From contig NZ_AP024412.1 in the NCBI RefSeq assembly GCF_016865445.1, positions 744,001-808,000 on the forward strand: a stretch of 64,000 nt of DNA. Direction: 5' to 3'. Shown piece after piece: positions 47,749 through 51,160 of this stretch. The notes below the pieces were generated by a model. It was not told the origin of the DNA, ran no database searches, and worked only from the letters and a program-made list of their open reading frames with translations. The stretch comes from Mariniplasma anaerobium. Lineage in GTDB: Bacteria > Bacillota_I > Bacilli_A > Acholeplasmatales > Acholeplasmataceae. The first letter of the stretch is position 1. Every line of letters begins with the position of its first letter. A program made the position numbers and the translations under genes.

Positions 47749-48917
47749 ACTTTTAATGTGACACATTTAAGATACAATGATTCATCGGATCCTAATAAAG
47801 CTGGATGGTCCTTTGATTGAATTCTAAAATCAATCATTTGAGTAATTCTTTTTGCATCATGTGATGCATCAGCAAGCATTTCAATAAACAATGTTTGATC
47901 CATATAATGTGAACATGAACATGAAACTAAATATCCCTCAGGTTCAATAATTTTTAAAGCTTGTAAATTGATATCTTTATATCCTTTATAGGCTTTTTTA
48001 ATATCATTGCGTTTTTTTGCAAAAGCAGGTGGATCAAGAATAACGACATCAAATGTTTTGTTTTCTTCATGATAAGCTCTTAATTGGTCAAATACATTTG
48101 CTTTATAGGCTTTAACTTGTGATAAATTATTTAATTTAGCGTTTTTTTCTATTTGACTTACAGCATGTTCAGAGATATCAAGACAAGTAACTTCCTTTGC
48201 ATGGTGATATGCAGCATGTAAACCAAATCCACCGATATGAGAAAAACAATCTAGGACGGTTTTACCAGAAACATATGGTTTTAAAGCATTGTGATTTTCT
48301 TGTTGATCTAAAAATGTACCAGTTTTTTGCCCATTAATGATATCAATTTCCATTAACAATTCATTTTCTTTAATGATAATTTGTTCTGGAACTTCACCGT
48401 ATACAACACCTTTAAATAGTTCAAGACCTTCTTTTTTTCTAACAGATACATCACTACGTTCAAATATCCCTTTTGGATTAAATAATTCAACTAAAATATT
48501 AATAAACATATCTTTTCTTAAATCTATACCTAGTGATAAGATTTGAATGGATAAATATGCATCATATTTATCTACAATGAATCCAGGTATACCATCGGAT
48601 TCACCAAATAAAACACGATAACTATTTTTAAATCCTAAATCTAATCTAGATTGATTTGAAAGTTTTATTTTTTGTTTAAAAAATTCTTCATCAATAACTT
48701 CATCAATATCACGTGATAATATACGAACAAATATTTTAGAAGTAGTATTTAAAAAGCCTTTACCTATAAACTCGTTATTATAAGCATAAACATAAGCGAT
48801 TTCGCCACTTTTGATAATACCTTCTATATGGTCAATTTCATTACCATATACCCAAGGATGACCTTGCCTAATTCTTATATCTTCTTTTGGTTGTAAAAAT
48901 ATTTTACAAAAATCCAT
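47742..48917 (-). CDS. RlmI-like class I SAM-dependent rRNA methyltransferase with PUA domain
   Basis: 391 residues. N-terminal PUA domain (IRQGHPWVYGNEIDHIEG), central RlmI-type insert, then the Rossmann fold: LDCFSHIGGFGLHAAYHHAKEVTCLDIS (SAM motif I), VVILDPPAFAKKR (motif IV) and SCSCSHYM. It would make m5C in 23S rRNA (RlmI-like); the exact position is unknown. It shares one base (TAATG) with the upstream RRNPP-like regulator, so is translationally coupled. Confidence 0.9.
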   Translation of the reverse strand: MDFCKIFLQPKEDIRIRQGHPWVYGNEIDHIEGIIKSGEIAYVYAYNNEFIGKGFLNTTSKIFVRILSRDIDEVIDEEFFKQKIKLSNQSRLDLGFKNSYRVLFGESDGIPGFIVDKYDAYLSIQILSLGIDLRKDMFINILVELFNPKGIFERSDVSVRKKEGLELFKGVVYGEVPEQIIIKENELLMEIDIINGQKTGTFLDQQENHNALKPYVSGKTVLDCFSHIGGFGLHAAYHHAKEVTCLDISEHAVSQIEKNAKLNNLSQVKAYKANVFDQLRAYHEENKTFDVVILDPPAFAKKRNDIKKAYKGYKDINLQALKIIEPEGYLVSCSCSHYMDQTLFIEMLADASHDAKRITQMIDFRIQSKDHPALLGSDESLYLKCVTLKVK

Positions 48918-49849
48918 TATTTTTTTCCTTCAATTCTTCTTTTGGCATATAAATCTAAAATATAGTTTTGGAAATCAATATTATAATCATCATTTATTAA
49001 ATTAATAAATTTCTTAGTTTTAGTTTCGTTGCCTTCAAACTCGAGTATATTAAAACATTTAGTTAAAGATTCTTCAAACTTTTTTTGATCTCCTAATTTA
49101 TAATAGGCTAAGGATTTATAGTAATAAAGATAATCCATGATATAAAAAGAAATTAGAGATTTATTTCTGTTTATCGCTAAATTACAAAATTTAATAACTT
49201 GATCATAAGATTCTAGAATACCTGAATTTTTTGCAAGTCGTGCAAGAATTAAGGTTAAAACTTTTTCATTCCCACCACTAACGATGACTCTGGAATCATT
49301 TAAATATTCAGTTATTTTTTCAATGATTTTAGTTTGATCTTCGGTAGGAAGTACATCAATTAAGAATGTAAGAATTAGTAGCTCCATTGTGTTTAAGACA
49401 CCTTGCTCTAAAACAAAAGGATAATTAACTAGTTCTTTACTCATTTGTCTCATTTGTTCTACAGAAATTTTTCGACTGTAATAGTTATTAAGCATGATAC
49501 TATGTTTATAAAGTAAAACGTTAGTTGGTTCAATAATGTGATCAATGGATATTGTTTTAGCTAATTCTGAAAATTTTTTATGATCATAATTTACAGCTAA
49601 ATTGTAAAGATTATTCATTTTACTTGTTTCTTCAATTTTAGCGACTTCAAATTCTCTTAAAATAGTATCAGTTTTCATACCTAATCTTGTCGTAAGCTGA
49701 GAGATAACACTAAAAGGAATATCGGATTCACCTTTCAGGTATCTTCGATATTGCCTAATTGAAACAATTTCATGTAAAAATGTTTCTTGAGAAATATGGC
49801 GAGCAATTCTTAATCGCTCAATGTAGATGCAAAGTGTGTTAGATTTCAT
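48917..49849 (-). CDS. RRNPP-like regulator (HTH plus TPR-type helical domain)
   Basis: 310 residues from ATG 49849, with SD AAGGTGA; the upstream in-frame GTG lies inside the SD. Residues about 10-70 form an XRE-type HTH (IERLRIARHISQETFLHEIVSIRQYRRYLKGESDIPFSVISQLTTRLG), the pattern seen in Rgg/PlcR-type proteins. The remaining ~240 residues are helical hairpins with TPR spacing (e.g. MDYLYYYKSLAYYKLGDQKKFEESLTKCFNIL). RRNPP proteins sense re-imported signal peptides. A small secreted peptide gene lies divergently 91 bases away, matching that arrangement. Ligand binding is inferred. Confidence 0.75.
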   Translation of the reverse strand: MKSNTLCIYIERLRIARHISQETFLHEIVSIRQYRRYLKGESDIPFSVISQLTTRLGMKTDTILREFEVAKIEETSKMNNLYNLAVNYDHKKFSELAKTISIDHIIEPTNVLLYKHSIMLNNYYSRKISVEQMRQMSKELVNYPFVLEQGVLNTMELLILTFLIDVLPTEDQTKIIEKITEYLNDSRVIVSGGNEKVLTLILARLAKNSGILESYDQVIKFCNLAINRNKSLISFYIMDYLYYYKSLAYYKLGDQKKFEESLTKCFNILEFEGNETKTKKFINLINDDYNIDFQNYILDLYAKRRIEGKK

Positions 49850-49876
49850 AAAAAAAGTCACCTTTTTTCCAAATCG

Positions 49877-49918
49877 GACATATACGCCCTGTTCAATGTG
49901 TCATTTTTAGCATAAAAT
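49877..49918. promoter_or_regulatory. Candidate operator and promoter between regulator and peptide genes
   Basis: An imperfect inverted repeat GACATAT (49877-49883) N12 ATGTGTC (49896-49902), 6 of 7 paired, lies in the 91-base divergent gap. A -10-like TAAAAT (49913-49918) for the peptide gene follows. Binding by the regulator is inference. Confidence 0.45.
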
Positions 49919-49940
49919 AAAAGAAAACGGAGGTTTCACT

Positions 49941-50174
49941 ATGAAAAAATTAGTAAAAGTTACATTAATTATTGTTGTTTTGGTTATGGGTTTAGCATTT
50001 GGTCTTTCTATGAGTAATAATTCACAAAAAGATATTTCACTTGATTTTGAAAATTCTGGACAACCTGAATGGTACGAAGTTGTAGAACTTAGAGCAAGCA
50101 AAAGAAATTTTGATTCAGTTCAAGGATTTAAAAACTCTGGTTTACCAGAAACAATAGAAGTTCAAAGTCTTTAA
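49941..50174 (+). CDS. Small secreted peptide with internal 12-residue repeat (candidate signal-peptide precursor)
   Basis: 77 residues. Positively charged start (MKKLVK), hydrophobic core about 7-22, then a short polar secreted part. This part contains a tandem-type repeat: F36ENSGQPEWYEV47 and F63KNSGLPETIEV74, 8 of 12 identical, separated by 15 residues containing basic residues (RASKR). The second copy is three residues from the C-terminus. Signal sequence, repeat and position opposite an RRNPP-like regulator suit a pheromone precursor. It could instead be a small membrane-anchored protein. SD CGGAGG is strong, 8 bases before the start, so it is probably well translated. Confidence 0.65.
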   Translation: MKKLVKVTLIIVVLVMGLAFGLSMSNNSQKDISLDFENSGQPEWYEVVELRASKRNFDSVQGFKNSGLPETIEVQSL

Positions 50175-50280
50175 TATAATCTCTCTCTAGTATTATATCA
50201 TAATTTTAACTAAAAAATAGGCTTCATTGTGCTATATTTACAAACAATGTAATGCAAAAAGACGACAAGGAGCGTAAAAG

Positions 50281-50724
50281 ATGATATTTGGAGTTATCAT
50301 GATATCTATAACAATTATACTAACCTTCTATATCTTTTTTAGTGCTGCCAAATGTAGAATTCAGTTAATACACCATCAATACAGTGAAAGTGAAGATTTA
50401 CATAAGACCGTAACATTGTTTCTATCTAAAACAACTATTGTTCTAGCTTTGTCATGGTGGATTAGTTTAATTTTAAACTCATTTATGAAAACTCAATTAA
50501 CTTTATTTGAGCCTAATCCTTTTGTTAGAGAAACTTTATTTGTCATCATTGGGATTATATGTATCTTAGTTTTATTATTGTTTAGAAATACAATCTACAA
50601 GAAATATTTAGATGATAATATAGAAAAAGTTATATATATAGAATATTCATTGAGCTTTATTTCTGGAATTCTTTATGCAATTATGTTTACTTATACCATT
50701 GAAACTATTTTATACATACTTTAA
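50281..50724 (+). CDS. Small multi-pass membrane protein
   Basis: 147 residues with four predicted membrane segments (about 2-22, 46-66, 79-98, 121-146) and short charged loops. It is unrecognised. SD AAGGAG. It lies 106 bases after the secreted-peptide gene and 16 bases before another small membrane protein, so the pair is likely co-transcribed. Relation to the peptide (export, processing or reception) is speculation. Confidence 0.65.
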   Translation: MIFGVIMISITIILTFYIFFSAAKCRIQLIHHQYSESEDLHKTVTLFLSKTTIVLALSWWISLILNSFMKTQLTLFEPNPFVRETLFVIIGIICILVLLLFRNTIYKKYLDDNIEKVIYIEYSLSFISGILYAIMFTYTIETILYIL

Positions 50725-50740
50725 TTACACAGAGGTGCTT

Positions 50741-51160
50741 ATGAAAAACATAGAAATTATAAAAGATATAAATATATTTATAGCAAATATAGGCATGGAT
50801 ATAAAAAATTGGATTCAAGTCTTATTTGAAAATCATTTATTAAAAGTTGAATACATAAAGTTGCTAGAAATGGGAGCTTTTATTGGATGTCTATTATTTA
50901 TCAGTCTTATTTTTATTATTGAGTCTAATAAAATTAAGAGAACTGAGTTTCTCGGGAAAAACACTTCATCTTATTTAGAAATTGGACTTATACTAGGAAC
51001 TTTAACTACATTGATTTTAATGTTTATTAATTCGAGTACTTTTAATGTATCAATCATATTTATTATATATTTATTCTTTGCATACACAATAAACAAAATT
51101 AGGATTCACTTTTTTGAAAAAACTGGACCAAAAACCAAATACCAAAAACAAATTATATAA
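50741..51160 (+). CDS. Small multi-pass membrane protein
   Basis: 139 residues from ATG 50741, SD AGAGGTG. Three membrane segments (about 42-62, 84-102 and 105-123) follow an amphipathic N-terminal part; the C-terminus is basic. It is unrecognised. It directly follows the four-segment membrane protein, and a terminator closes the group. Confidence 0.62.
   Translation: MKNIEIIKDINIFIANIGMDIKNWIQVLFENHLLKVEYIKLLEMGAFIGCLLFISLIFIIESNKIKRTEFLGKNTSSYLEIGLILGTLTTLILMFINSSTFNVSIIFIIYLFFAYTINKIRIHFFEKTGPKTKYQKQII

Follow-up and report, generated by a model that had tools for sequence, protein, structure and literature searches.

Introduction

Regulators of the RRNPP type (e.g., Rgg, PlcR and NprR) pair with small secreted pro-peptides encoded next door. 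Mollicutes are often regarded as stripped-down, signal-poor cells. The present analysis concerns a stretch of 64,000 nucleotides (nt) from the 1.9-Mb genome of the wall-less Acholeplasma-group bacterium Mariniplasma anaerobium (NZ_AP024412.1, positions 744,001 to 808,000; hereafter the window), in which the gene for a regulator with a helix-turn-helix (HTH) and a tetratricopeptide repeat (TPR) domain diverges from that for a 77-residue peptide. This locus very probably encodes an RRNPP-type peptide signalling (quorum-sensing) circuit with an activating regulator.

The best structural match is PlcR-PapR of the Bacillus cereus group, which the predicted circuit resembles in (i) the HTH and TPR receptor fold, (ii) a small, putatively exported precursor next door with the signal at its C-terminus, and (iii) a DNA-binding regulator that would act as an activator. 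However, identity is only about 15%, and here the precursor gene is divergent and the units are longer, often multi-copy and of another consensus. The PlcR box is TATGNAN4TNCATA, to which the operator predicted in close relatives of the window genome, GGACATATACGCCC, is unrelated. Rgg/SHP and ComR/XIP of Streptococcus share the receptor fold, a pheromone gene beside the HTH-TPR regulator and an operator beside the pheromone promoter, whereas their SHP and ComS precursors are very short and single-copy, and sequence, operator and targets differ. Arbitrium (AimR-AimP) is a phage-borne lysis-lysogeny system, unlike the chromosomal locus described here.

Precursors with more than one pheromone copy, whether the same or different in sequence, are known from RRNPPA systems of Bacillota, with up to six copies in PMC9765709 and up to eight cited in PMC11343458. 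In multi-copy Phr, AimP, NprX and PapR precursors the copies are identical or nearly so, sometimes with one deviating; multi-copy forms make up 6.7% of atypically large precursors, and none was found for Rgg/ComR (PMC9765709, PMC11343458). The precursors described here likewise hold several identical or near-identical copies, sometimes with a deviating one, but 34 of 63 are multi-copy and their receptor clade is absent from both papers. The multi-copy principle is thus not new, given that Bacillota precursors already display it.

A receptor of the RRNPP fold beside a small peptide gene

An earlier sequence-only reading of the window proposed an RRNPP-like regulator, with an HTH and a TPR-like domain, diverging from a peptide with an N-terminal signal sequence. 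Both open reading frames (ORFs) are present, separated by 91 nt between the regulator ATG and the precursor ORF. The regulator ORF as called occupies 48917-49861 on the minus strand, with an alternative GTG start at 49861; the start is probably the ATG at 49849, which GGTGA precedes, since homologs align from there. Searching with the single protein against the PDB and curated families was uninformative for its identity, giving a weak HTH_3 match (E 0.013); among 25 homologs, 13 matched this family. When PDB sequences were searched with a profile, an NrpR regulator, Rgg2 and PlcR came up weakly (E 0.001-0.014).

An AlphaFold2 model built from an alignment of the 25 homologs (mean predicted local distance difference test score 88.6) consists of an XRE-type HTH (helices 3-55) followed by an all-helical, TPR-type domain, and its whole chain superposes on PlcR. 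In a Foldseek search of the PDB, all 42 chains at E<=0.001 were RRNPP-type HTH-TPR regulators (PlcR, ComR, PrgX, Rgg2/Rgg3 and related proteins), with PlcR-PapR the best match (E 5e-7); the TPR fold whose absence from the C-terminal domain would have counted against the proposal was thus found. PlcR-PapR also ranked first by VIA-align (Z 17.8, 273 residues, root-mean-square deviation 8.4), while Rap, NprR and AimR stood lower, mixed with other TPR proteins. The large deviation probably reflects domain orientation in the model, since the TPR part alone fits apo-PlcR at 3.5 Å over 215 residues. None of the curated pheromone-receptor models of Pfam and NCBIfam recognises the regulator or its homologs, yet the structural matches are to RRNPP proteins; judged by the model, the regulator is therefore of the RRNPP fold, in a clade that curated libraries do not name.

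The pairing with a peptide gene, whose absence from relatives would likewise have spoken against the proposal, is conserved. Upstream DNA of at least 300 nt was available for 65 homologs, and at 51 of these a small ORF whose product has a hydrophobic N-terminus runs divergently from a start 55-140 nt away. The same arrangement and motif occur in 13 of the class-level loci read outside the order, in other families of the class. Of 160 genomes of the order, 52 have a regulator homolog, as do 54 of 296 sampled from the class; among the listed genomes of a small-genome genus (g8) none was found. The relatives are Acholeplasmatales, and the label "mollicute" that the sequence-only reading used is therefore right. 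Viral contigs, phages and plasmids were searched and held no relatives, on which ground an origin from a mobile element was rejected. Several genomes (G015, G018, G028, G050, G066 and others) carry multiple receptor paralogs, some with internal stop codons, which suggests duplication and decay of signalling systems.

A conserved operator at a fixed distance from the promoter

The gap between the two genes had been noted to hold an imperfect dyad, and this proved to be the core of a conserved predicted operator. Its consensus in the regulator/precursor gap of close relatives is AATrGGACATATACGCCCTrTT, and more distant clades have gap palindromes of their own, GGGCGTATACGCCC and CGACATATATGTCG. 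For pattern searches a narrower alignment (A2) was used, the broader one (A1) being too diverse. Allowing at most one mismatch, the 15-mer AGGGCGTATATGTCC occurs 27 times in ten genomes (reversed control, 0), and exactly twice in each of five genomes of the window genus; one of these species (G003) has GGCC in place of GTCC at both its sites. Motif, repeats and operator are far beyond chance and recur in dozens of genomes.

The spacing to the promoter is rigid. The best -10 hexamer begins exactly 22 nt past the operator at most of 49 sites (weight 41/49, up to 45 with ties); its mean match there is 4.86 of 6, whereas 1,000 shuffles gave no mean above 2.76, whatever the offset. The composite site (operator, 22 nt, TANNNT) occurs 26 times in ten genomes, with none in the reversed control. 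A sigma-70 scan of the region around the gap found promoter-like matches no more often than in shuffled DNA, and the gap itself had none, which fits the lack of a -35 box. Since the operator is centred near -42, the 22-nt spacing is fixed and no -35 consensus is present, the geometry is that of an activator whose operator takes the place of the -35 box.

The same parts could work with the opposite sign, with a regulator that represses the precursor and its targets and is released by the peptide, a mode open to PrgX/Rgg3-like proteins. Centred near -42, the operator covers part of the -35 region, and a repressor could also work from there. However, a rigid 22-nt distance at very different promoters, together with the lack of a -35 consensus, is a requirement for activation but not for repression. 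Repression is unlikely, though a serious contender.

A small predicted regulon

The window genome has three composite sites, at the precursor promoter, at C1:856567 (about 63 kb away) and at C1:475014. The second heads a short predicted transcript that ends in a terminator and is conserved throughout the genus (five genomes). Its product is a structured RNA of about 115 nt (L047 1575-1685; about 856640-856754 of the chromosome, G000:C1), whose fold is kept across the genus with 34 pairs, 92% of cells paired and 7 pairs changed on both sides, values that none of 500 shuffles reached. A small ORF under this site was rejected, as its frame is not kept in G003 and the conserved RNA fits better. 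The RNA matched no Rfam family and was found in the window genus only; the operator in front of it has the tmRNA gene on its far side, in divergent orientation.

The third site heads a predicted secreted protein of 2,072 residues (L192 166-7022; about 475115-481971 of G000:C1), which resembles WapA/Rhs YD-repeat proteins in its RHS/YD repeats (RHS_repeat) and Rhs-associated core, and differs from them in lying under a pheromone-receptor operator. A 211-aa ORF follows that could be an immunity partner. In a second genus (g3) the same operator precedes RHS-repeat proteins, one of which is homologous to that of the window genome (32% identity over 1,256 alignment positions); the operator-RHS link thus recurs in two genera. 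Further sites in g3 precede an SPFH-like operon (named from its sequence) and a trypsin-like protein. The RHS-type proteins under the operator are probably interbacterial.

Repeat units of the precursor and their selection

The peptide was said to carry two 12-residue copies with 8 identical residues on either side of a basic RASKR stretch, and all three elements are in place (Table 1). A chance repeat was rejected on comparative data and on a shuffle test, in which shuffling the post-signal part 20,000 times reached the 8/12 identity seen between FENSGQPEWYEV and FKNSGLPETIEV in 2 cases. The 63 precursors contain 59 distinct units, whose consensus is L/I-[DG]-[FY]-[DE]-[DN]-S-G-x-P-[ED]-phi-[VI], and the multi-copy precursors hold 2-9 copies. 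As the sequence-only reading had suggested might be looked for, the unit changes from species to species, while copies inside one precursor remain nearly identical as protein and differ synonymously. The linker between the copies is basic in congeners too, but as a general cleavage signal it was rejected, because units directly abut in most multi-copy relatives.

The repeat units are under purifying selection. Tandem copies show 336 synonymous against 4 non-synonymous pairwise differences, although the search pattern itself partly enforces the near-zero non-synonymous count; one array (L075) has no DNA differences among its copies, and recent duplication therefore also occurs. A cleaner test compares units by their position in the precursor, in five species of the genus. 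For FKNSGLPETIE, the terminal unit, it counts 50 synonymous and 0 non-synonymous pairwise differences (proportions of differing sites, pS 0.71 and pN 0), with pN at 0.149 in the first internal unit and 0.225 in the signal sequence.

The view of two related signal units holds in that the unit is conserved and repeated in relatives, but the two differ in kind. Because the terminal unit has a pN of 0 and the internal unit one of 0.149, two classes of putative signal are distinguished, the terminal being invariant across the genus and the internal species-specific (FENSG-QPEWYE, SPEWFE, QPEWSE and SFEWCD). The internal unit is present once in the window precursor and three times in three congeners. 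In zrk7 (L011), the NSGLPETIE class has a gene to itself, with three copies, which immediately follows a gene holding six copies of the other class.

Alternatively, the small protein might remain membrane-bound and act as a sensor or anti-regulator partner, its repeats serving as interaction motifs rather than as released signals. The N-terminal segment in the window genus has no clear signal-peptidase I site, and the motif-bearing ORFs of some relatives have no signal sequence at all. However, up to nine near-identical head-to-tail units fit precursors of multiple ligands, and AxA-type sites are recognisable in several relatives (e.g., L012, L022 and L030), which makes a membrane partner very unlikely.

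Two further arrangements were observed. At the receptor paralogs L098, L099, L100, L101 (about 88 nt upstream of the receptor), L088 and L116, the divergent small ORF has a unit-like motif (e.g., KFSDMGMPDII, GFYWIGDPEF) and no signal sequence; an intracellular ligand, another export route or an eavesdropper are candidate explanations. Upstream of the receptor homolog L017 (G050), a tandem DNA array alternates two 52-aa ORFs (MKKIIISLF...IEDVGLPDG and MGQNEKQF...LNDVGLPEG), both ending in the motif RGY[IL].DVGLP[DE]G.

Neighbouring genes

Table 1. Features of the signalling locus, in positions of the window (aa, amino acids).
Feature	Position	Strand	Remarks
Receptor/regulator gene, 310 aa	48917-49849	-	ATG at 49849; stop codon 48917-48919; N-terminal XRE-type HTH and C-terminal TPR domain
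Predicted operator, pseudo-palindrome AATCGGACATATACGCCCTGTT	49872-49893	+	Core GGACATATACGCCC at 49876-49889; common to both divergent genes; conserved in relatives' gap; recurs at target promoters
Predicted -10 element TAAAAT of peptide promoter	49913-49918	+	Exactly 22 nt after operator; no -35 consensus
Putative pheromone precursor gene, 77 aa	49941-50174	+	Divergent small ORF conserved beside receptor
Predicted N-terminal signal/export sequence MKKLVKVTLIIVVLVMGLAFGLSM	49941-50012	+	From sequence; K-rich start and hydrophobic core kept in relatives
Internal unit FENSGQPEWYEV, residues 36-47	50046-50081	+	Species-specific class
Basic linker RASKR, residues 51-55	50091-50105	+	Between units; basic in congeners, absent where units abut
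Terminal unit FKNSGLPETIEV, residues 63-74	50127-50162	+	Core FKNSGLPETIE invariant in 5 species of genus
First small membrane protein, 147 aa	50281-50724	+	Next to precursor; accessory
Second small membrane protein, 139 aa	50741-51160	+	ATG at 50741; follows first across genus; accessory

Two membrane proteins had been counted as part of the module. Both ORFs exist, but they are accessory and accompany the pair in only some relatives. Full-length matches of the first occur only beside a receptor/peptide pair (five of five genomes of the genus, two g3 genomes and zrk7), and most other receptor loci lack it; the second matched no Pfam family. At L018 (G029:C83), the receptor homolog adjoins an ATP-binding cassette (ABC) transporter with an N-terminal C39-peptidase-like sequence, which suggests a link to peptide export at that locus.

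These neighbours, and the small secreted peptide itself, would also suit a bacteriocin-like antimicrobial precursor with a dedicated regulator and immunity membrane proteins, an idea that is very unlikely given that the units are short, acidic, head-to-tail and strongly constrained, most loci have no membrane genes, the nearest folds of the regulator are pheromone receptors and the same operator drives distant unrelated genes.

The proposed circuit

In the proposed peptide signalling circuit, the hydrophobic N-terminal sequence of the 77-aa precursor would direct its export, and extracellular cleavage would yield short acidic peptides around FENSGQPEW(YE) and FKNSGLPE(TIE). An oligopeptide permease would probably bring these back into the cell, where they would bind in the TPR groove of the regulator. 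The genome encodes two OppA-like binding proteins (SBP_bac_5, PF00496) and two M50 proteases (Eep/RseP-like), which make import and processing possible. The liganded regulator would then bind its operator near -42, with the -10 element exactly 22 nt downstream, and activate the precursor gene in a positive loop, together with the structured RNA beside tmRNA and the giant secreted RHS/YD-repeat protein. All support for the circuit is computational, and it shows receptor fold, gene pairing, selected repeat units, operator, fixed spacing and shared regulon.

Several points weigh against this circuit. Mature peptide length, export, cleavage, import, binding and the sign of regulation are points that we infer, and for the sign the spacing is the single pointer to activation. 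At 11-13 residues the repeated unit exceeds most known RRNPP pheromones in length, and a simple export model does not explain the motif-bearing ORFs that have no signal sequence. Furthermore, recombination can homogenise repeats, which together with the pattern-based search qualifies the tandem-copy counts, and the silence of the curated receptor models has to be set beside the structural matches.

A more tentative extension, possible rather than probable, is that a single precursor carries two messages for the same receptor, one private to the species (repeated internal units) and one common to the genus (FKNSGLPETIE, which in zrk7 also has a gene of its own). Cells might thereby weigh the density of kin against that of relatives before making the giant RHS-type secreted protein and the regulatory RNA.

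Novelty and significance

The sequence-only reading knew of no such system in mollicutes. A search of the open literature (with few subscription papers and no supplementary tables) for RRNPP, Rgg or peptide pheromones in connection with Acholeplasma, Acholeplasmatales, Tenericutes or Mollicutes found no relevant paper, and likewise no description of the receptor clade, the operator or the RHS link. The receptor clade, lineage, operator and regulon thus appear to be new.

The acholeplasma locus brings together a putatively secreted multi-copy precursor, a receptor of the PlcR/Rgg/ComR fold, a DNA site and target genes, a set that looks complete. The circuit would tie peptide signalling to RHS-type proteins. 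In addition, a large RRNPP clade with mostly multi-copy precursors, a readable operator and a small regulon is well suited to studying the evolution of repeated and divergent units alongside a single receptor.

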